In this document: piece by piece, positions 33,796-64,000 of the stretch
How the letters are laid out: each line of letters begins with the position of its first letter
How positions within the stretch are numbered: the first letter of the stretch is position 1
Source: Haliclona indistincta
Taxonomy: Eukaryota; Porifera; Demospongiae; Haplosclerida; Chalinidae
Direction of reading: 5' to 3'
Length of the DNA: 64,000 nt
NCBI GenBank assembly: GCA_964017065.1
Contig: OZ024785.1
Location: 7,625,672-7,689,671 of the forward strand
Program-made: the position numbers and the translations under genes
The notes under the pieces: model-generated
What the model was told of the DNA's origin: nothing
Seen by the model: the letters and a program-made list of their open reading frames with translations, nothing else
The model's database searches: none

Positions 33796-35532
33796 GTTGC
33801 AGGTGAGCAAACAGGACAGTTTAGACAATATTCTATGCCAAAGTATGCATTACCGGGCACCCTGAAGCCCTAAAAAGCCGAAAGTGGCAAGGGGCTCTGC
33901 CCCTTCGAACCCCGGGTTAACGGGGATACCCCTTTAAAATCCCCTCATGCTATATGTTTTAGTGGGGAGGGCGCGCCGAAAAACTTTAGGTAAAGTCTTT
34001 GCTTTATGACGGTGACAGTATATATGACGTAGACAATGACGTATGAATCATAGAGATTTTATACGGGATTTTATACGGGTATTGTATCCGTATAATTTGA
34101 CGTACGTCATTTTCTACGTCATAGATATAGCAAAGACGATCAGAAACGGCGAGTGCTGCTACTATCAGGTTGCCGCATTCGAGTACAGTGTAAGCTACTA
34201 TCACGATTGAAACGCTGAGGTTAGTAAAGTCATATGGCTACCTGCTTGTAAGTGCTTTTTCTTAACTTTCGAAGATGCGCATTATTGAGCCTAAAAACTT
34301 TCTCACCTGTGGATTTTTATATAATTTCGGCCTTGTTTAGGACCGCACTGTAGTTTGCATGAACATCAAGCGCCCGCTTTACAGTAGTGGCCCGCGAGAC
34401 TAGCTTTACAGTACTGTATATGATAGATAAACTAGTTACTCAACTGTTTGCCAAGTCTTTTTTCTTAACTAACACTATAGCAATAAATGATAATCGGTGT
34501 TTCCAACAACTGCGACTGAACTGCTGATATCTTCGAGATAGAATAACATATGTTCCTAACTAACAAAATTTTCGTGTGTTAAAATTTTGTGTTAAAATAT
34601 TTCCGTGGGTCGACCTGCCCCACGAAAATATTTTAACATAGAAAATTCAACGTGTAAGCGAGCGTACACAGTTTCAGTGAGTTTCTAGATAACACTGCAA
34701 GACTGTCGCTGCTGAAAGCTGTAACAATGCTTGTATTCGTGATTATGGCATATACAAGAGTGAATGCCATTTGTTGCCATTTGCTGAATGCCATTTGAAT
34801 GCCATTTGTTCACCAGACCAGGAACTGGCGTCTGGCGATTGTCAGAGACACTCGATCAGAGATGCTTCTGACAGCAAAGTAGAAGCACAGTCGCTGGCTG
34901 AAAAGTAACTCCAGACAGACAGTATTTCAGCTGTAGCCAGCTCTTAGGCATAAACTTACAGCATACAACTCGCAACTCGGCATACATGTGTTTACAAATT
35001 TTCGTTGTTAAAAAATTTCGTGTGTTTCATTTTCGTGGTTGATCCTAACCACGAAACTATTTTAACAACAAAAATTTCCCGATTTACGGTATACACACAT
35101 ACTCTAGATGGATGTATCAACTCTCTCACTAAATCATATAACTGTGACATCTATAGGTTAGTTTTTATGAGCAAAAACATTTCATGTAGGTGAAATGTGG
35201 TAAATTGGAATGTTTAGACTGGAAGCACTGTATTACTTCAAGAAAAAATTAATGATAGTCTATGAATATTAATCAGTAAAGAGCGTAACGATGTACCACT
35301 TATTACGATAGAATCACCGAATATCAAAGACTCAAGGTATAACAGATAAGTACTGTATTGCTGTGAAGAAAACTGTCTGCTGAACACGCTGGTCTTTGTT
35401 ATAATCTTGTATGCGATACTATTTCTAAACTGTAAGTGGTAGAAGAAAATAAGCCCAGCGGTCAATTGAAATTGCATTCCAATGGTTTGGTATGTGTTTC
35501 TGAAATAGCCCCGAGTTACTGTACTATCTTAC
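33796..35532. other. Repeat-rich intergenic region
   Basis: No gene is supported. The segment 33840-33990 is a GC-rich repeat (GGGGCTCTGCCCCTTCGAAC) that recurs inverted at about 39940-40090 and in the duplicate at about 51450-51580. Inverted TGACGT-rich arms lie near 34020-34045 and 34100-34130. Short foldbacks occur near 34565-34645 (AAAATTTTCGTG / CACGAAAATATTTT) and 34990-35090, the latter ending TTTCCCGATTTACGGTA. They look like miniature transposons. Confidence 0.5.
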
Positions 35533-37191
35533 TAAGTGCTGCAGCAGTTGGTGTGGTAGTAGCTGCAGGTGGACCAGTGCTTGGAGTTGCTGAATAACAG
35601 AATAGCACATTTCGTCACAATACCATTCAATCACAACCTACTTGGTGACATTGCTACTGACACTTGATATGTGACAGTAGTAGTTGCTCTTGTATTATCA
35701 GCTCTGCACACATATGTGTAGGTCCCTGCTTGGTTTTGACTGGAGTATCGAATTGGATTTGCAGTGACATCTGGCATAGTAATTCCTGTTCCAGTCAATG
35801 TGATGGTAGGATTTAGTGGATAGGACTCATTGACACGACAATTGATAGAGAAGTTTTGTCCAGCTATTACACTGATTGGTATAACACCACTGCCTGCTTC
35901 AAATGTTGGAGGGCCTTGAGATTGAAAAGACATAATTTTATGTGTACTTAATGTAATAAATTTTCTTGGTGTAATTTAACTTACATATTACTGTCAATCT
36001 GAAAGAGACATGATCTGAACCCAGAGGGTTGGTAGCTGTGACATTGTAAAGTCCATTGTCACTGCATTCTGCTGATGTAATGGATATTGATGTAGCAGTT
36101 ATAGCTATGTTGCTGCTACTAGTAAATGGTACTCCATTCTTTTTGTCCAAGTATAGGTAAAGTTATCACCCATGATGGGTTGTGCTTCAAAGTTGAAAAT
36201 GACAGAGAAAGCATTACCTCTGCTGATTTCCTGATCACCAGTAGAATTTATATAATTTGGTGGAACTAGAAAAGAAGAATTATAGTCAGCCCTGTCACAT
36301 CCAATCTGAATGCTATCTTAGATGCACAATGTGCGAGAGTAACAATGGCGCTTGCAAGTTCTTAGGAAACGGCGGCATTCCTTTGAAGTTCAGCAAGGCT
36401 TGCCATAGTTTGCTTCAGTAAGTATGCCGAACAGCCCATGCAGGCTGTCATGTCATACTCAAGATTACTGTTCTAATTGCACCTATGCTACGAAGTACGC
36501 AACAGCGGCACTGTAACCAGGAAGCCGGCTTTGTAAAGTAAATTAGTGGAGAACAAAATCACACAGTACATGCAACCGCCACATAAACGTTGTAACACGA
36601 TTCTAACGAAATTTAGATTTGCATGCTGCTATAGGTTAGCAGAAGCTGGCTACCTAAAACAACTAGTACTTGATTCAGACAGTTTAAACATTTTAGTGCA
36701 CATTGCTACCTAATTAAAGTTCACATTGCTGAAATCATCTATTCTATGTAACTGGTACACCAGTAAAACAAAATTAGAATTATGGTGGTACAAATTAGTA
36801 GGAAGGAGGGTCTGTAACTGCTTTTTCTTACATAACACTTCCAATGTAATAGTTACGATTACGTCACCATCTTCACAGGAAAATTTACGTCCATTATCAC
36901 TACTGGTCAGGTTGGTTACAGTAAATTCTACTGTAGGCCCGCCAGTGGGTGGATCTGAAATCAGACGGTCGGACGGATCAAAAATCACATCATCTCCAGG
37001 AATATCAGTTGTACAAGTGAAAGTAAAGTTTTGTCCAATGGATCGAGTAGTACCGTTAGCAGGAGTGATAGTCACGACACCTAATAAAATTTATTATTAT
37101 AATTGTAATACTTGAGTCAATGTTCGCATAGCTTACCTTCTGAAAAACGCCAACATAAACATAATAAAAGAATCGTTCTAGGTAGCTTCAT
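35533..37191 (-). CDS. Small Ig-domain protein with signal peptide (frameshifted in exon 3)
   Basis: Exons are 37137-37191 (signal peptide MKLPRTILLLCLCWRFSEG), 36832-37080 (Ig, FTFTCTTD ... SSDNGRKFSCED), 35985-36265 (Ig, FTYTWTK ... ECSDNGLYNVTATNPLG), 35642-35914 (Ig, FSINCRVNE ... GTYTYVCRADN) and 35533-35589 (Ser/Thr/Pro linker PSTGPPAATTTPTAA). The third exon is 281 nt against 279 in the duplicate. Two extra A's in a homopolymer at about 36140-36144 shift the frame after YTWTK, so the gene is either broken or has an assembly error. Exons 3' of the linker could not be resolved and no TM helix was found. It is a likely secreted or surface Ig protein of unknown function. Confidence 0.65.
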
Positions 37192-51384: not shown

Positions 51385-53091
51385 GTTGCAGGTGAGCAAA
51401 CAGGACAGTTTAGACAATATTCTATGCCAAAGTATGCATTACCGGGCACCCTGAAGCCCTAAAAATCCGAAAGTGGCAAGGGGCTCTGCCCCTTCGAACC
51501 CCGGGTTAACTGGGATACCCCTTTAAAATCCCCTCATGCTATATGTTTTAGTGGGGAGGGCGCGCCGAAAAACTTTAGGTAAAGTCTTTGCTTTATGACG
51601 GTGACAGTATATATGACGTAGACAATGACGTATGAATCATAGAGATTTTATACGGGATTTTATACGGGTATTGTATCCGTATAATTTGACGTACGTCATT
51701 TTCTACGTCATATAGATATAGCAAAGACGATCAGAAACGGCGAGTGCTGCTACTATCAGGTTGCCGCATTCGAGTACAGTGTAAGCTACTATCACGATTG
51801 AAACGCTGAGGTTAGTAAAGTCATATGGCTACCTGCTTGCAAGTGCTTTTCTTAACTTTCGAAGATGCGCATTATTGAGCCTAAAACTTTCTCACCTGTG
51901 GATTTTTATATAATTTCGGCCTTGTTTAAGACCGCACTGTAGTTTGCATGAACATCAAGCGCCCGCTTTACAGTAGTGGCCCGCGAGACTAGCTTTACAG
52001 TATATGATAGATGAACTAGTTACTCAACTGTTTGCCAAGTCTTTTTTCTTAACTAACACTATAGCAATAAATGATAATCGGTGTTTCCAACAACTGCCAC
52101 TGAACTGCTGATGTCTTCGAGATAGAATAAGACAAAACATATGTTCCTAACTAACAAAATTTTCGTGTGTTAAAATTTTGTGTTAAAATATTTCCGTGGG
52201 TCGACCTGCCCCACGAAAATATTTTAACATAGAAAATTCAACGTGTAAGCGAGTGTACACAGTTTCAGTGAGTTTCTAAATAACACTGCAAGACTGTCGC
52301 TGCTGAAAGCTGTAACAATGCTTGTATTCGTGGTTATGGCATATACAAGAGTGTATAGGAGCCAGCTGAATGAAAGAATCCTACCATTTGTTCACCAGAC
52401 CAGGAACTGGCGTCTGGCGATTGTCAGAGACACTCGATCAGAGATGTTTCTGACAGCAAAGTAGAAGCACAGTCGCTGGCTGAAAAGCAACTCCAGACAG
52501 ACAGTATTTCAGCTGTAGCCAGCTCTTAGGCATAAACTTACAGCATACAACTCGCAACTCGGCATACATGTGTTTACAAATTTTCGTTGTTAAAAAATTT
52601 CGTGTGTTTCATTTTCGTGGTTGATCCTAACAACAATAATTTCCCGATTTACGGTATACACACATACTCTAGATGGATGTATCAACTCTCTCACTAAATC
52701 ATATAACTGTGACATCTATAGGTTAGTTTTTATGAGCAAAAACATTTCATGTAGGTGAAATGTGGTAAATTGGAATGTTTAGACTGGAAGCACTGTATTA
52801 CTTCAAGAAAATGATAGTCTATGAATATTAATCAGTAACGAGCGTAACGATGTACCACTTATTACGATAGAATCACCGAATATCAAAGACTCAAGGTATA
52901 ACAGATAAGTACTGTACTGCTGTGAAGAAAACTGTCTGCTGAACACGCTGGTCTTTGTTATAATCTTGTATGCGATGCTGTTTCTAAACTGTAAGTGGTA
53001 GAAGAAAATAAGCCCAGCGGTCAATTGAAATTGCATTCCAATGGTTTGGTATATGTTTCTGAAATAGCCCCGAGTTACTGTACTATCTTAC
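51385..53091. other. Repeat-rich intergenic region, duplicate of 33796-35532
   Basis: It is colinear with the left block. It differs by small indels, for example loss of part of the foldback near 52630 and a replaced stretch near 52350-52385. No gene is supported. Confidence 0.5.
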
Positions 53092-53822
53092 TAAGTGCTG
53101 CAGCAGTTGGTGTGGTAGTAGCTGCAGGTGGACCAGTGCTTGGAGTTGCTGAATAACAGAATAGCACATTTCGTCACAATACCATTCAATCACAACCTAC
53201 TTGGTGACATTGCTACTGACACTTGATATGTGACAGTAGTAGTTGCTCTTGTATTATCAGCTCTGCACACATATGTGTAGGTCCCTGCTTGGTTTTGACT
53301 GGAGTATCGAATTGGATTTGCAGTGACATCTGGAATAGTAATTCCTGTTCCAGTCAATGTGATGGTAGGATTTAGTGGATAGGACTCATTGACACGACAA
53401 TTGATAGAGAAGTTTTGTCCAGCTATTACACTGATTGGTATAACACCACTGCCTGCTTCAAATGTTGGAGGGCCTTGAGATTGAAAAGACATAATTTTAT
53501 GTGTACTTAATGTAATAAATTTTCTTGGTGTAATTTAACTTACATATTACTGTCAATCTGAAAGAGACATGATCTGAACCCAGAGGGTTGGTAGCTGTGA
53601 CATTGTAAAGTCCATTGTCACTGCATTCTGCTGATGTAATGGATATTGATGTAGCAGTTATAGCTATGTTGCTGCTACTAGTAAATGGTACTCCATTCTT
53701 TGTCCAAGTATAGGTAAAGTTATCACCCATGATGGGTTGTGCTTCAAAGTTGAAAATGACAGAGAAAGCATTACTTATGCAGATTTCCTGATCACCAGTA
53801 GAATTTATATAATTTGGTGGAA
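53092..53822 (-). pseudogene. 5'-truncated copy of the small Ig gene
   Basis: Exons equivalent to 3-5 are present and in frame: 53544-53822 (Ig; YTWTKNGVPFTSSSNI, without the frameshift of the left copy), 53201-53473 (Ig, FSINCRVNE ... YTYVCRADN) and 53092-53148 (Ser/Thr/Pro linker). The signal-peptide and first Ig exons lie outside the duplicated block, which ends at 53928. It therefore has no promoter or start and is probably silent unless joined to new upstream exons. Confidence 0.7.
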
Positions 53823-53969
53823 CTAGAAAAGAAGAATTATAGTTAGCCCTGTCACATCCAATCTGAATGCTATCTTAGATGTACAATGTGCGAGAGTAAC
53901 AATGGCGCTTGCAAGTTCTTAGGAAACGATAACATGCAGCATTTGCGAAGGAGTTTCCAAAAATGTTTA

Positions 53970-55415
53970 ATTTGTGAGCACTCACGTGAGCATTTATTTA
54001 CATGCAGTGAACAGCTGCACAATTACCGATCACTGGTCACAATCTCATGAAATGTTAACACTCACAAAATTACGAAGCACTCACAATCTTAAGAAATTCT
54101 CACAATCTCACAAAATGCTCAGGCTCATGAAAGGCTCACAATCGAAATGTTCACTATCTCACAAAATATGCTCACAATAATTATCATGAAAGCCGGCTCA
54201 CAGTGTCGAAAGGCTCACAATCTCATGAAATGCTCACAATCTCATGAAACGTTCACAATCTCATGAAATGTTCGCACTCACGTACAACATTACAAAGCAT
54301 GTACTCACAATCTTGACAAATGCTCACAATCTCACGAAACGCTCACAGTCTCATAAAAGGCTCACAATCTCATGAAACACTAGCTCACAATCTCATGAAA
54401 CACTCACAATCTCATGAAACGCTCACAATCTCATGAAATGCTCACAATCTCGACATGAAACGCTCACAATCTCACAAAAGACTCACAATCTCATGAAATG
54501 CTCACAATCTCATGAAAGGCTCACAATCTCATGAAACGATCACAATGTCATGAAATGCTCACAATCTCGACATGAAACGCTCACAATCTCACAAAAGACT
54601 CACAATCTCATGAAACGCTCACAATCTCATGAAAGGCTCACAATCTCATGAAACGATCACAATGTCATGAAATGCTCACAATGAAACACTCACAATCTCA
54701 TGAAATGCTCACAATCTAATGAAACGCTCACAAAGTCACAAAAGACTCACAATGTCATGAAACGCTCACAATGTCACAAAAGACTCACAATGTCAAGAAA
54801 CGCTCACAATGTCATGAAACGCTCACAATTAATCTCATGAAACACTCACAATCTCATGAAATGCTCACAATCTCACGAAACGCTCACAGTCTCATAAAAG
54901 GCTCACAATCTCATGAAACACTAGCTCACAATCTCATGAAACACTCACAATCTCATGAAACGCTCACAGAAACGCTCACAATCTCATGAAATGCTCACAA
55001 TCTTGACATGAAACGCTCACAATCTCACAAAATACTCACAATCTCATGAAACAATCACAATGTCATGAAACGCTCACAATCTCATGAAACAATCACAATG
55101 TCATGAAACGCTCACAATCTCATGAAACGATCACAATGTCATGAAACGCTCACAATCTCATGAAACGATCACAATGTCATGAAACGCTCACAATGAAACA
55201 CTCCCAATCTCATGAAATGCTCACAATGTCATGAAACTCTCACAATGTCACAAAAGGCTCACAATGTCATGAAACGCTCACAATGTCACAAAAGGCTCAC
55301 ACTGTCAAGAAACGCTCACAATGTCATGAAACGCTCACAATTAATCTCATGAAACACTCACAATCTCATGAAATGCTCACAATCTCACGAAATGCTCACA
55401 ATAAAAAATAATGCT
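53970..55415. repeat. 19-bp minisatellite array
   Basis: About 1.4 kb of imperfect tandem copies of TCACAATCTCATGAAATGC and variants (AAACG, ACAAAAGGC). There are roughly 70 units, with higher-order duplication visible (about 54300-54500 resembles 54860-55030). It directly adjoins the end of the segmental duplication and lies 3' of the PHD-finger gene. Confidence 0.95.
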
Positions 55416-55515
55416 TACAATTGCCTTTAAACGCGATAACGCTGCATATCCTTACTAAATATTAATAAGTAATAAAATAATTATTACTTATAAAATTACT
55501 ATTATAGTTCAAATG

Positions 55516-58500
55516 TCATGCACAGGCTGGGCATTTGACTGCATCCTCTTCAGCGGGTAGGCTGCTATATCCAAGGCAGCGGTAGTGATACCACCGCCAA
55601 CAGTGGTCACAGCCTACCCACATTTTCTCGCTTCTTTTATTGTACCGGCCACCACATTCCTGGCAGTTATTTTTACCTGTGGCTATGAAGATTTTTGAAA
55701 AAAAAAACATAAATTATTCATCTATCATCTGTATCACACCTTACCCTGAGTAGATGCATTTGGCTTTTAACCAGGTCGATTCATCTTTGACTGTTGAGAC
55801 CCTATTACAAATTAGTCATTATTGCAGATGTAATTATTACAGCTTAAGGCTTACCCCGAGTAGCTGCACCTGAACGAGTCTTTTGAGACCCTATTACATG
55901 TACAGTAATTAAAAGCAAAACAATTGTTTAATTTAAGGCTTACCCCGAGTAGCTGCATGTGGCTTTTTGCTTGTTGTCTTCGGCTGTTGTTGAGACCCTA
56001 TTCAAGCAAGTTAGTCAATTAGTCAATTGTAGTTTATATTACAGCTCAATGCCTACCCTGAGTAGAATCAAGAGCCTTTCTGGACCGAGTGGTCATCTTT
56101 GACTGTTGAGACCCTATTACATTAAATCAAGTACGTTTTAAGTGTGAGAAGTTTATTGCACAGAACCTTGGCTCTGCTTAAACTTCTTCTCAAATTCTTC
56201 AGTATCTAAAACATTACATAAAAATTATGAAGATAGCACAAATATTTATGACCGTAACTCTTGGTTGCCAAAGAAATCTTTGGTACCTGTGCAGTGCGTG
56301 AAACTGGAGATTGTCTGTAATATTGACGGGCAAAAGAAGATTAACGTTTACAATGTTAGAGGGTTACCTTAACTCTGAAGAACTGCCTGACAGACTGACT
56401 GGTGCATCTATCACCGGAGATTGTCTGTATTGATGGGCAAAGTAGGATTAATGTTTACAATGTTAGAGGGTTACCTTAACTCTGAAGAACTGCCTGACAG
56501 ACTGACTGGTGCATCTATCACCGGAGATTGTCTGTATTGACGGGCAAAATAAGATTAACGTTTACAATGTTAGAGGGTTACCTTAACTCTGAAGAACTGC
56601 CTGACAGACTGACTGGTGCATCTACCATTGGAGATTGTCTGTATTGATGGGCAAAGTAGGATTAATGTTTACAATGTTAGAGGGTTACCTTAACTCTGAA
56701 GAACTGCCTGACAGACTGACTGGTGCATCTATCACCGGAGATTGTCTGTATTGACGGGCAAAATAAGATTAACGTTTACAATGTTAGAGGGTTACCTTAA
56801 CTCTGAAGAACTGCCTGACAGACTGACTGGTGCATCTACCATTGGAGATTGTCTGTATTGATGGGCAAAGTAGGATTAATGTTTACAATGTTAGAGGGTT
56901 ACCTTAACTCTGAAGAACTGCCTGACAGACTGACTGGTGCATCTATCACCGGAGATTGTCTGTATTGACGGGCAAAATAAGATTAACGTTTACAATGTTA
57001 GAGGGTTACCTTAACTCTGAAGAACTGCCTGACAGACTGACTGGTGCATCTATCACCGGAGATTGTCTGTATTGACGGGCAAAATAAGATTAACGTTTAC
57101 AATGTTAGAGGGTTACCTTAACTCTGAAGAACTGCCTGACAGACTGACTGGTGCATCTATCACCGGAGATTGTCTGTATTGACGGGAAAAATAAGATTAA
57201 CGTTTACAATGTTAGAGGGTTACCTTAACTCTGAAGAACTGCCTGACAGACTGACTGGTGCATCTATCACCGGAGATTGTCTGTATTGACGGGCAAAATA
57301 AGATTAACGTTTACAATGTTAGAGGGTTACCTTAACTCTGAAGAACTGCCTGACAGACTGACTGGTGCATCTACCATTGGAGATCGTCTGTATTGATGGG
57401 CAAAGTAGGATTAATGTTTACAATGTTAGAGGGTTACCTTAACTCTGAAGAACTGCCTGACAGACTGACTGGTGCATCTACCATCGGAGATTGTCTGTAT
57501 TGATGGGCAAAATAAGATTAATGTTTACAATGTTAGAGGGTTACCTTAACTCTGAAGAACTGCCTGACAGACTGACTGGTGCATCTACCATCGGAGATTG
57601 TCTGTATTGATGGGCAAAATAAGATTAATGTTTACAATGTTAGAGGATTACCTTAACTCTGAAGAACTGCTGAAATCTTCACTATCTGTTTGTCCAGAAA
57701 TACCATTGTGGCTGGAATCTGCATCATGTAGAATAACGATGTCATTAAAAATATTTTCACTAACCTTCGGTGAAACAATCATGAAGGCAATCTGGCAAAC
57801 AAGTGTTTGCAATACAAACACATGTTTTGCACAGAGTAGTTCCATGAAGTGATCTTTGGATCCTAACAAGATCCAAATTATCCTTCAAAAAGTGCTGCTT
57901 CATGTGTGAGCAGCACAACTCATTGGATCGAATCCACTTTCGTATGGCCTTTTCGCTGTCGTGGGTGATGTCATACTTGTCTAGCTTAGCTAGAAAGTCC
58001 TTCAACCGAACTGCTACTCCCTTAACTTGTATAGATTCAGTTGCACTTTTAATGTGATACATTATTTCGGGATTAATCACAGTAAGAACCTGCGGTAATG
58101 TAAATAATCACAGTAAGAACCTGCAGTAATGTAAATTAGAACTTATCAAATTTAATTAACTGCTAAATTTCAGCAAAGGTCAATCACATCTCTATTATAT
58201 TCATCAAAATGTTGCATTTGAGTACATCAATCATGGTACCACCCATACTTTAACATTCAATAACTTTCATACAGCACAAATGCCAGAAACACAGGTCACA
58301 CAATCGCATCACAACTTTGAGGCCATGCATGCACCCTCAATTCAAGGCACAATAATGGTGAATTAGTTTAGGCATGATGATAAGGGACTGTCACTCAGTG
58401 CAATTAGTTATTTATTTTATGGTATAGTCGGACATGGAGTCCACCCAACTTCTATGTGACAAACGGTATATACGGACAGGGCTGTATGTAGGCTGTTATA

Positions 58501-60271
58501 TAGCAGATGCATAAAGTGCACTCGTATGTACCTCTGATCTTGGAGCAGCTTCAACAAATTGAGTTAATAGTTGACCAAATCCATTCTTTTGTTGTACTTG
58601 ACGAAGCTGGTTAATCTGGCGACTCCGAATTTCTGGTACTATAATCTCTCTAAAATGAGCCCAGATCGCATCAATTGATTCCTGCACCTGGCTACCAGAT
58701 GCATGAATTAACTATGAAGTGGATGGAAAACTATTTTTGTAATGAGATCGACAACGTACCTGTTCTGCACAAAATATTGTTAAACAGTACTGTGTGCAAA
58801 GTCTTGAATCGATCTTCTCCTCAACTATTTCAGCCAATTTCTTTTGTAATCCTCCTAAACAGTCAGGAGACATCTCTTCCAGCTTTTTTCCTACTCCCAA
58901 TAGTGAGGGGAATGCTGCTGGGGCATCTTCTATTACACGCGAAAGTACATGTAGCTCTACTTGGGGAGGTTCAAAGACGAACGGGTTGAGTACAGCCCTG
59001 CCAAGATACCTATAGTAATAAAGCAGCTATAGTGGTAACAAAACATGTATTAAAGGGTATGTCGTCCGTCACCTTGGGTCTACTTCAGTGAGTTCATCGA
59101 CAGCAAAAGTATTGGCTGTAATGATTGGGACACAGCGTGCACTGAAATGACTACGCTGAGTAGCCATTTCAGCACCTCCGAATGCATTGATTAGAATCTG
59201 CTTAAGAATGGTATTGTTGCTTGGATCATCAAGTACAAATGGGAGCGCTCCACTGAGGTGCTGTCGAGCAACGCTGTCGCTTAAGTAAGTTTGAAACCCA
59301 TGCTGTAAATTACACGCAGCTGCCAATGCAATCTTAGCAGCATTGCTCTTTCCTCTACTAATCTCTCCAAAAGCTATTTGGACAGCAACACTACCACAAT
59401 TGGTTAGCACACTCTCATAGAATAGAGAAATTACAGCAGCACCTACACATGTAAAATTGATAATTAATGTAATTTGTGATGATTTACTGTACACACACCT
59501 AAAACAAGCACAGCACTTGGCCAGTTGTTTCCCATCAGTGTAAGTATGCCTCTCATTAATTTCTCCATGGGTTGTGCAACAGTTGGCAGAGAAGACAAAG
59601 GATGAACTATATGGCTAATCTTGAGTTTCTTGAATACCCGAGGAACCCAAACAAACTCCTGTTGCTGTGGTGCAATGCTTGTGCCGTCACTACAGAACTG
59701 TAAATTCGGGCCTAGTACAAATACATTGGAGCCAGGCTGTCTTCCTGTGCAAACTACTGGCTTGCAGGCCTGGGGCTCGTAATCCACTGGCTCATCCTCG
59801 CAATCGCTACAGGTTAAGGTCTATCATTATAAGCGAGCACATGCTTATGATGACTTACTTAAAATCCTTCCAAAGATCCATCATGAATGCCTTTATGTCT
59901 TGGGATTCTAAATTGCAAACCAAAGCTCCGCCAGGTAATGCGTCACCGAGAAACTTCCTAAGTTGATCGCTGTTGTTCACCTCGTACCATGGCAAGAAGC
60001 ATTCGCTACATGTCATGATAATAGTGCGGGTAAATCAGTATTCAACTACACATAGTATACAGCAGTACCCTTTGACTATGCCACGTCGCCTGACTTCTTG
60101 CGACACTTCAACAATGAATCCACTGTACTCAGGGAAGTCCGGTGGAGCTTGCACAAATTTGACCAAACTCAGACCGAAATTAGTCAGCTCCACGAACTCC
60201 CCTTTATTCTTCGTCCAATACCCGATCTTACTTCCATTCTGTTCCACTTTGCGAGGCCGATTCCTTCCCAT
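55516..60271 (-). CDS. P-loop ATPase with repeat region and C-terminal PHD finger
   Basis: Exons on the minus strand: 60069-60271, 59859-60005, 59499-59806, 59073-59442, 58760-59009, 58532-58687, 57765-58089, 57652-57718, then twelve 57-nt exons (57545-57601 down to 56368-56424, every 107 bp), 56253-56314, 56167-56205, 56057-56113, 55944-55997, 55855-55890 and 55516-55676. Omitting a stop-containing exon at 55745-55801, the coding length is 2919 nt (972 aa), exactly in frame. Exon 4 has a Walker A-like GEISRGKS, a Walker B-like PFVLDDPS and a sensor-like PIITANTF. Twelve copies of RQSPVIDAPVSLSGSSSEL follow, then short Ser/Lys-rich exons. A PHD finger (CQEC, CDHC, H-YR-C, CPAC; 55516-55676) ends the protein. 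The start at 60271 is tentative. It is possibly chromatin- or transposon-associated; the exact family is not recognised. Confidence 0.75.
55745..55801 (-). other. Candidate stop-containing (poison) exon
   Basis: It has the same splice framing (AATAG/GGTCTCAACAGTCAAAGATG ... ACTCAGG/GTAAGG) and phase as its neighbours at 56057-56113, 55944-55997 and 55855-55890, but reads S-Q-Q-S-K-M-N-R-P-G-stop. Skipping it joins the preceding exon to the PHD exon in frame. Including it would end the protein before the PHD finger. Confidence 0.5.
56364..57647 (-). repeat. Tandem array of a 107-bp exon-plus-intron unit
   Basis: There are twelve head-to-tail units of exactly 107 bp (donor sites at 56364 + 107n). 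Each holds a 57-nt exon, from an ATACAG acceptor to a GAGTTAAG/GTAACC donor, and a 50-nt intron. Entry and exit are phase 2, so each unit adds 19 residues. Because 107 is not a multiple of three and the intron starts with an in-frame TAA, the array can only be translated if spliced. Variation is mainly conservative (PVIDAP or PMVDAP; RQSP or RRSP). Confidence 0.9.
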
Positions 60272-60419
60272 GATGGTGGTGCACGTAGCTGCAGTGTTGT
60301 ACGCAGAATTCACGGTGAGACTACAAGCACGTGCTCGTGATCAATGCACAATAAACGTATTTATTATTCATAAATGATTATTGAAAAGATTAATTATTAG
60401 TTACAGTATCAAAGGAAAC

Positions 60420-63400
60420 TTATTGTGAATCAGCAGCTTTGCTTTTAGGGAGCATAGGCTTTCTTCCATTGATGTAGCATTTGCTAGTATATGAGTTTCT
60501 ACGCAATACCATGCGGTGCAAATAAAATAAATGGTGTGTCTTGTTCATTGCACACACAATGTGTTTGTATCTAGCAATCCATGAAAAGGTTTGTTCTGCT
60601 ACTTGTGTATTGAAGTCAGGATTGTCTGCCTTCAGCTTTGCAGGTGAGAATAGTTCTTTGCACACTGGACTGATGTGATTTCTGAAGTGAAAAACATCAA
60701 TCACTTTGTTTATACTCATCCACAGACGATCGTACGGGCTTGGGAGAAAGAGTGGATTCTGGGCAACACGAAGCCGTTGTAGGTTACACATATTATCATA
60801 TGCCAGAGTAATGTTTGGTGGTATATCTGTTTTTCGAGTCAGAGACAGTAGCCACTGCACAAGAATCAAGAAAACTTGTGAGGGTGATTCAGATCTACAG
60901 GAAAACCACAAAAAATGAATTGAACGTATTTCTATGACAAAATTCTATGCTAATACATTTACAGTACAAGCACGTACACTCAACTCACATTATCTGAAGT
61001 ACTCTCGAATAATTATACTAACTGACACAATGACTCACTTATAAAGTGGCTGCCAACTGTCGATATGTCCTCCTCCCCTAATGACAAACTGGTGACCCCT
61101 AGACCATTTTCTCAGCTTTGTGCTATTCCCAGTGTCTTTATGGCACATATTATCATTAATGGTTGTACCATCAGCAACACTGGGGTGCTGCTGAATAAGA
61201 TCAGCTGTACCTGAGTAAGTGATGGTATTTTAGGAATGCAGACAGAATGCCGTCATGATAAATTTACAGAAGTAGTATTGACAATAGTTATTTTACAACA
61301 AGGCGACAATCTCATTAGCAAAATGTGTGATAGACATGTTAATATTCCATAGGTAGTACCAGCTCTATTCAGCAGATGGTTTTTGATGTCATGGGTAGAA
61401 CAAATTAATGTGCAAAAAATATTATGCTTAAAAAAGCCACAAATTCTCAAGGGCAAATAATTGATATTTTTCCTTCCTCTGCCAAGACTCACTTTCAAGA
61501 ATCACAGATACATGTGACCGTTGAGAAATCAGGATTAAACATTTTTGAAATTTTGTGTCAAAAGTCAAGAATATGAGCGATTATTGGGGAATCTATCAAA
61601 AGTGTTACAAACACGTCTTTAAAATATTAATGAATAATGATGATCAACTAAAACATAATCCATATCTGCAGTAGTTTTACTTATAATAAGCATCGGTAAA
61701 ATCGGAATAACAACAAATTTGCATTTTGGTGCAATTATCAAATGAACCAGTCGACTAACTGCACGTTATAACAGGCAACTATTGTACCTTGAGAATGAAC
61801 TGCATCAACACCTGCAGAAGATAGCCGAGGCAATTCTTTCACTGCACTCTCTACTTTGTCAGAGCAGACATTGCTGTCAGATATAGGTCCACTTTCTGCC
61901 AAGAAATGATTTAAAGTTGCAAATCAAAGAATAAGCTCGCAAATACATACTGCAGTGGGACCCTCTCATTTGGATCCCTTGAGACTCACAATAGTGTCTA
62001 ATTAGAGAGGGTTGTTGAACATTTTAAAATGCCTACATTTAGAATATTAGCGGCCCATTTACACTGATATGCTTGTACAGAACAACTTTTCCATCATAAT
62101 GCCGCTTATCGAACTACTATAATATTATAGTTCTCATTTGGGCGTCTGTTTACACTAATCTGATAACTTGTATCCACAAGCATGTACATTATGTATAATT
62201 GACAGCTATACAGCCAAAAATTGCTGTGCTAAAGTTTGCCGGCTCTAGAATATTATTTCTCAATAATTAGAATCGTTTCTGACAGTCGACTATGTGCTTG
62301 AAGCATCAAGCATAGATTCTAGAGACCCATCTTAGTTCACAGTCAAGTCCATTGGGTGTACATTCCCTCCCAAACACAAAGCAGTAACATAAAGCTCACC
62401 ATCTTTCAAAGCTCCAGCATGTTTGAGAAAGTCACGAAGTCCAGTTGGTATATGAGGTGCCCGGGAGTTTAAAAGCTGACAATGATCCTGACAAAATGCC
62501 TTGTTATGCAGTGGAGAATTTGTGCATACATCAGGTAATTTTAGATTTGGGATTCCCTCAACAGATATCTGAGAAAAATACATCACACAAAGTAGCAAAT
62601 GGCATTATTGCCACAGTATAGTGTATACAATATTATGTGCAGCTTGTCTGGTAATAAAGGTCACCAGACAAGTCAACAGCTCAAGGGGTCTTCCTTCAAC
62701 AGCTTAGTTACAGGTTAATTCGGTTCGCTCCACCTGAACTTCTGGTGCCCCAGAAGAATACCAGGTACATGTACAGATGAACAATGCTCTGGGATTTGAG
62801 CTAGTGTCCATTCTCTGGGCCAGAAGGACCAGATCACACCATTCCACTCAATCACTCACAAACACGCTTTCTCTATGCCATACTTTCTTAACAAAACTTT
62901 TTGGAAATTTGTGCAATTTTGAAATTGAGCAGGCAGTTTGTATTTGTAAATTGCTCAGGAGATTCTACGCAATTTGGAAACTAGTCTTGTTTTCATGTCA
63001 GCTGCTTCACTGTATGAAGACTACACTCCGCAGTCGTTGCCAATAGCGTTCACATATTAGCAGTGTACCGTTCAGAAACAAGTCTGCTGATTGTGAATGA
63101 GGAGAAAACAGCCAGTTTGAAAAAATTATTGAGAAAGTAAATTCCGTGCACGCCCACATTACACACAAAGAAAAAATTTTATTGTTAATGTGCATTATTT
63201 TGCTCAATTCTCAATGAAGACGTTATGTCGCTATGTAGCTCTCTGGTTAAGAAAACAGCAATTTGCTATACTCGTACAAATTGCTCAATAATACTGTTGA
63301 CACCTTACAAATACTATAATTATGAGTATGACTAACTTCAACATGGTAGAGGCAATGGGGAAATGACAATTTCCACATACCATCAGTGACCCAGAGAGTA

Positions 63401-63928
63401 CCACACCCTGCAAATGTTTAAAATTAATACTAAATTAAACCATTGCTAGTCTTGCATACCTCTAGCCTTGCAATCACTGGAGCATTCAGATGGTGGGTGA
63501 GGATAGATAGTCTCCTTGCGCAAACTCTCCACTAGCTCCATGTGATTTTCTCGATCACGGTCTGAAAAAAATGGTGTGTTTTCTTTGCCTAGTCGCCTAA
63601 GCTCTGCCTCCAGTTCACCGTTGTAAAATGCTTCCGCTGCATTCTTAGCTGTCATTTCTAATGCACAGTTAGATAATGAATGCTGTTGGTAGATTCATTA
63701 ACAACCTTTTCTTTTTGGGACACTAAAAGCGTCATTATAGGACTCAGAGAAAGCTTCAAATGATACCCAACCATGATTACTAAAAAGATAACGATAATAC
63801 TTAGTGTATAAATAATCTTTTTAAACTTACGCAAGAGAGCACTGGAATTCAAGCAACTGTCTTTCAAAATACACTGTGTCTGTCACTTCCACAGCTTCTC
63901 TAGCCAATCTGTAGTACTTGAATCCCAC
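60420..63928 (-). CDS. KDZ/CxC-type transposase-like protein (5' end outside model)
   Basis: Eight exons join in frame to 454 codons: 63831-63928, 63706-63779 (HGWVSFEAFSESYNDAF), 63460-63657, 63337-63407 (TLWVTDGMWKLSFPHC), 62400-62568 (Cys/His cluster CTNSPLHNKAFCQDHC), 61788-61895, 61039-61210 (INDNMCHKDTG ... RGGGHIDSWQPLYK) and 60420-60894 (LAYDNMCNLQRLRVAQ, VIDVFHFRNHISPVCKELFS, DFNTQVAEQTFSWIARYKHI). The DG-x-WKL, YDNMC and NTQ-AEQ-FSW signatures are those of KDZ (Kyakuja-Dileera-Zisupton) transposases and the CxC-domain proteins derived from them. The first Asp (VTDG) and AYDN are candidate catalytic residues. The N-terminus continues to the right, and exons beyond 63928 were not assigned. 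It is followed after 148 bp by the ATPase/PHD gene in the same orientation. Confidence 0.75.
62569..63336 (-). other. Long intron of the transposase-like gene
   Basis: The 768-bp interval between the DG-x-WKL exon and the Cys/His exon joins phase 0 to phase 0. No additional exon or recognisable element is seen in it. Confidence 0.5.
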
Positions 63929-64000
63929 CTGCCAAATTAGAAGCCTATAATGAGCATAGCAAACAAATAAACATTTGCGTGTACCTCGTGCTTATTGCCA

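Follow-up and report, generated by a model that had tools for sequence, protein, structure and literature searches.

A tandem array of exon-plus-intron units, probably coding, in the second gene of a putative KDZ-like DNA transposon of Haliclona indistincta

We studied a minisatellite in a stretch of 64,000 nucleotides of Haliclona indistincta DNA (the window) and asked whether its unit is a complete exon with its own intron, which kind of gene would hold such an array, and whether the design occurs more than once in the genome. The analysis indicates that the array is real and probably coding, that it belongs to a transposon gene and that it recurs among relatives of that gene, the principle itself being already known (see below). 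TRF reported a 107-bp period with 12.7 copies and 95% matches at 56306-57670, in the minus strand, and together with its flanking exons the array spans 57718 to 56253 in the same strand. The gene model around it, here called gene 2, has the following parts:

57765..60271, minus strand: gene 2 exons 1-7, the ATPase part, with invariant GxxxxGK, DDP and N (model and 7-sequence alignment)
57652..57718, minus strand: exon 8, 67 nt, entering in phase 1 and leaving in phase 2, unit-like in its 3' part (gene model)
56368..57601, minus strand: array, predicted exons 9-20 (12 x 57 nt, near-identical 50-nt introns; TRF, unit parse and gene model)
56253..56314, minus strand: exon 21, 62 nt, phase 2 to 1, with a unit-like start (gene model)
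55772..56113, minus strand: second short exon repeat, exons 23-26 (57, 54, 36 and 30 nt), phase 1-1 (model)
55516..55682, minus strand: last exon, with a PHD finger and the stop (Pfam PHD, 26.6 bits, cut-off 24)

The original prediction described twelve 107-bp units, each made of an exon and an intron, and the unit parse confirmed it: there are 12 exons of exactly 57 nt, all of phase 2-2, with 13 donors and 13 acceptors, and of the 13 introns all but the last (53 nt) measure 50 nt. The predicted splice sites of the array are GAGTTAAG/GTAACC (donor) and ATACAG/ACAATC (acceptor), and the unspliced unit has stop codons in all three frames. The donor of exon 21, ACG/GTCATA, is weak (score -2.6). 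Both flanking exons that had been proposed to be framed for the array, at 57652-57718 and 56253-56314, fit the 27-exon model, with 67 and 62 nt. Because every array exon is a multiple of three nucleotides (3n) and of phase 2-2, the frame would be kept when units are gained or lost; the idea that copy number could change without breaking the protein is supported, the phases permitting any unit number. A comparison of substitutions between units, proposed earlier as a check, found 4 of 57 exon columns variable (3 nonsynonymous and 1 synonymous) against 6 of 50 intron columns, proportions that do not differ significantly (Fisher p = 0.51) and so do not tell the two apart.

In a whole-genome search the window array was a single locus (3 candidates, 3 scored), the other two matches covering just 41-43 bases of the exon after the array. 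A plasmid search in near mode with the array as query gave no match. Introner elements are intron copies inserted at many unrelated genes; an introner insertion was rejected here, as the array lies at one locus and its unit includes its exon.

Gene 2 was modelled with 27 exons and 984 open codons, ending with the PHD finger. In the ATPase part, residues G25, G30, K31, D71, D72, P73 and N110 were invariant in 7/7 aligned rows (about four of them distinct), and they may represent the Walker A and Walker B motifs and a sensor residue. No Pfam P-loop family matched the ATPase part and no PDB sequence matched the ATPase exon, whose predicted structure had a pLDDT of 39, too low for use. A protein search with an early, imperfect join of the gene 2 exons gave 0 of 7994 scored candidates at E <= 0.001, and viral contigs searched with one ATPase exon contained no relative. 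A 31-bp tandem duplication at 58074-58136 covers the acceptor of exon 7, giving two candidate acceptors. The protein encoded by the array region would have 251 residues with 47% S+T+P+G and a net charge of -15, a composition that suggests a disordered spacer between the ATPase and the basic/PHD end. Exons 23-26 each begin with GGTCTCAA and form a diverged run encoding a K/R-rich stretch; exon 26 is open only via a weak donor or if it is skipped, the longer form having an in-frame stop.

The original prediction missed the setting of this gene, which is a DNA transposon:

53928..64000, minus strand: DNA transposon, in-window part (empty site, TSD and TIRs)
53920..53927, no strand: target-site duplication (TSD) GTTTCCTA, 8 bp, bordering the element on its 3' side (second copy: 65913-65920 in extended coordinates)
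60438..64000, minus strand: gene 1, putative KDZ-type transposase gene, which runs past the window (Pfam KDZ; exon match to copy A, see below)
54208..55402, no strand: 19-bp tandem repeat near the 3' end of the element (TRF)

The element totals 11,985 bp and its left end lies 1,912 bases beyond the window, at extended coordinate 65912. An empty site was found inside the window at 36363-36370, where GTTTCCTA is present once: the flanking sequence at 52501-53928 has a 97.5% match at 34919-36371 in the window, and beyond the insertion this match continues, with extended coordinate 65913 facing 36363. The TIRs are imperfect, with 16/23 positions matching in the window element and in copy A alike. 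Gene 1 of the window scored 20.9 bits (E=3.2e-4) against Pfam KDZ, below the curated cut-off of 26.6, and aligns exon by exon with gene 1 of copy A, in which CxC5 (a CxC cysteine cluster associated with KDZ) was found at 32.0 bits (cut-off 26.9); the window exon matching the CxC5 exon of copy A is 53% identical to it over 58 residues. Judged by these matches, the carrier would be a KDZ-like DNA transposon with a transposase gene and an ATPase/PHD gene.

Several other observations concern the element and its surroundings. The 19-bp repeat has related counterparts in copies A, B and C, there too 3' of the PHD exon, and the exact word GATTGTGAGC has 26 occurrences in the window, 20 in L012, 4 in L013 and 18 in L014. 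L010 and L011 are shortened derivatives in which the left end (extended 65732-65912) is joined to window 55831-56295, without the array. Some kb beyond the left end of the element there is a TTTC microsatellite of ~190 copies (L009:4871-5636). The window regions at ~300-29000 and ~30000-53500 contain near-identical genes of Ig/fibronectin-like membrane proteins, named by eye from open frames, and duplicated receptor-like segments; the transposon is inserted into one duplicate.

Three related copies were compared with the window element. Copy A (C1) has the two genes in the same order, and long stretches of copies B (C1) and C (C6) are ~89-98% matches to A. Target duplications of 8 bp flank copy A (TCATTAGA) and copy B (TGCACCAG); none was seen for copy C, whose left end differs. 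The linker of copy A, the one copy of this third lineage that was parsed (by eye), has 8/8 exons of 3n length and phase 1-1, and 9 of the 28 exon pairs were alike at z > 3, the best at 11.9. The linker of copy A would thus appear to be an older, decayed form of an exon array of the window type.

That the element is dead, its array surviving as a neutral remnant in a gene that has ceased to be expressed, is, in our judgement, unlikely. Such a fate would agree with the genome search in which the right end of the element matched only itself, with the in-frame stop in the longer form of exon 26, and with array exon changes that show no visible constraint, three of four being nonsynonymous. The 984 stop-free codons across 27 exons argue against it, however, and so do the exact copies of the TSD and the still recognisable empty site.

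A genome search that took the ATPase exon as query yielded 10 candidates, 9 of which were matches: the window, copies A, B and C, a short fragment at C6:10529845, C4:11183715 and three distant matches (C1:805234, C2:8041955 and C6:11343268), for which the downstream DNA was read. The first two of these, D1 (C1:805234) and D2 (C2:8041955), are 26% identical to the window ATPase exon, and each is followed by 28 exon+intron units (D1 at L061:2285-4407, D2 in L064). The D exons measure 27 nt in 56/56 units and their introns 45, 51 or 53 nt, which differ by 2, 6 or 8 nt; length changes that are not multiples of three are therefore limited to predicted introns. In both copies the reading frame stays open across the array and on into a basic tail, reaching a stop in the D1 stretch, in which no PHD finger was seen; the D2 stretch that was read ends upstream of the stop. 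D1 and D2 are known here as ATPase relatives, and their membership in a KDZ element would be an assumption. No exon+intron array was present in the DNA downstream of C6:11343268. Note that L063, which adjoins the match at C6:10529845, has 137-bp and 81-bp tandem repeats (L063:515-1438) without a consensus-like exon/intron split (see below).

The two D arrays differ far more than their flanks. The 5' flanks have 1 mismatch in 2200 positions and the 3' flanks 0 mismatches in 606 with one gap, whereas the arrays have 27 mismatches and 7 gaps in 2162 aligned positions; unit order differs while unit number is equal. This rearranged array, with changes of non-3n length confined to the predicted introns, adds support from a sister gene to the proposed frame-safe units. 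The observed intron and exon scores between window and D units were reached by 62 and 205 of 1000 shuffles, respectively, and the two kinds of unit are not demonstrably homologous. In L066 and L067 (C4) a D-like exon occurs singly, flanked by intron sequence, and perhaps corresponds to the unit before its expansion.

How far the sequence itself argues for exons was evaluated with shuffled units. A bare GT..AG intron (45-60 nt) with an open 3n exon was obtained in 1832/2000 shuffles of the window unit and 992/2000 of the D unit, so that a split of this kind is nearly free by chance. When consensus-like sites were required, under a rule ([ACG]AG/GTRR and YAG) fixed post hoc, after the unit was seen, the counts fell to 35/2000 and 16/2000, respectively. 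A splice-site model trained on a small set, the 12 other introns of gene 2, gave good scores to the array donors (6.4% of 329 GTs score as high, the array donors counted in) and poor ones to the acceptors (their scores are reached by 53% of the gene's 354 AGs); acceptors are not discriminating in this model and their scores are no help to the exon reading. As a background for tandem repeats we took the 9 TRF rows with a period of at least 60 and at least 2.5 copies in 197,900 bases of selected sequence with some overlap, in which two row pairs describe one array each. The consensus-like split was found in 4/9 rows, all of them window or D arrays, and in none of the other five. Since neither the site scores nor the substitutions are decisive, the case for exons rests on the frame and the relatives.

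We regard as quite unlikely the alternative in which a single large intron contains the whole array as a non-coding minisatellite, exon 7 being joined to a downstream exon of phase 1. Skipping the array would keep the frame, since phase 1 is both the end phase of exon 7 and the start phase of exons 22-27; exons 8-21 can be skipped as a block, and the array could thus be spliced out whole. The low scores of the array acceptors and of the exon 21 donor also fit a non-coding array. On the other hand, the consensus-like split is rare in shuffles of both the window and the D unit, the D frame continues into the basic tail, length changes that would break a frame are confined to predicted introns, and copy A has symmetric exons at the same place. 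That the length or order of the array is in part an assembly artefact is highly improbable: near-identical units are hard to assemble, which affects the D1/D2 comparison too, but the window array is just 1.4 kb with distinct unit variants, in a 16.5-Mb contig of a 46-contig assembly.

The explanation we favour, and hold to be quite likely, is that the array codes for an extendable, probably disordered linker of the second protein of a KDZ-like transposon, multiplied across introns, and recurrently so. The array would consist of symmetric exons in succession, every one paired with a short intron, and the S/T/P/G-rich linker would sit between the ATPase part and the basic/PHD tail. Unequal exchange or slippage spanning an intron may multiply units at the DNA level, and each gain or loss would add or remove a protein module without a frameshift. 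The same multiplication would have acted more than once among the relatives of gene 2, as a related gene pair with a different array of the same design points to recurring linker lengthening and not to a one-off oddity. The borders of the element, its gene order, the frames, the recurrence and the rearranged D array are seen directly in the sequence; RNA splicing of the units and the disorder and spacer function of their product are predictions from it. Splice-isoform and length diversity, which the original prediction expected of the array, is only a possibility, and unit skipping could possibly generate ladders of isoforms. A broader conjecture, which we find doubtful, is that a transposon lineage remodels the linker of its accessory ATPase by exon+intron minisatellites, with branch-specific units, fast turnover and skipping that would produce a length ladder.

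The array design is present in more than one relative within one genome, and in the D1/D2 pair array change can be viewed directly, next to flanks that hardly differ. These loci form a natural test case for the pairing and splicing of near-identical introns and for the question whether introns make the expansion of coding repeats safe. Among the matches listed in a search of part of the literature there was no exon+intron array inside a DNA transposon; one may nevertheless have been described elsewhere.

The design itself, which the original prediction held to be unusual, has precedents. One is CNN00420 of Cryptococcus neoformans, described in 2008, whose ~107-nt repeat, like the window unit, contains a whole intron: it consists of exon ends and a full-length intron, the introns are identical, splicing is supported by ESTs and repeat number varies among strains (PMC2395259). 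Unlike the window array, CNN00420 is a single-copy yeast gene with six introns in all, and the accessible portion of that paper mentions no transposon (PMC2395259). In the Schistosoma mansoni SmPoMuc genes, the 27-bp exon 2 and its flanking introns are tandemly repeated and homogenised, and repeat number varies between individuals and among transcripts; unlike the window array, their unit is ~1 kb and they are mucin genes of a parasite (PMC2576457). The same authors point to SOWgp of Coccidioides, in which repeated exons and introns are nearly identical, evolve in concert and are polymorphic in number, as summarised there; unlike the window gene, SOWgp encodes a fungal cell-surface protein (via PMC2576457). 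In Argiope MaSp2, highly homogenised repetitive introns mark the coding repeat units, some alternating two types; unlike the window array, these are large coding ensembles of structural silk proteins (PMC9779670). As to the carrier, Zisupton is reported to make 8-bp TSDs, and Zisupton, Dileera and Kyakuja resemble the window element in carrying an extra gene and, if gene 1 is rightly assigned, in having a KDZ-type transposase; unlike in the window element, that extra gene is a TET/JBP dioxygenase, and no exon arrays are seen in the part of the account at hand (PMC12730594). A mobile element would now join the few mucin, silk and fungal genes in which exon+intron minisatellites are known.
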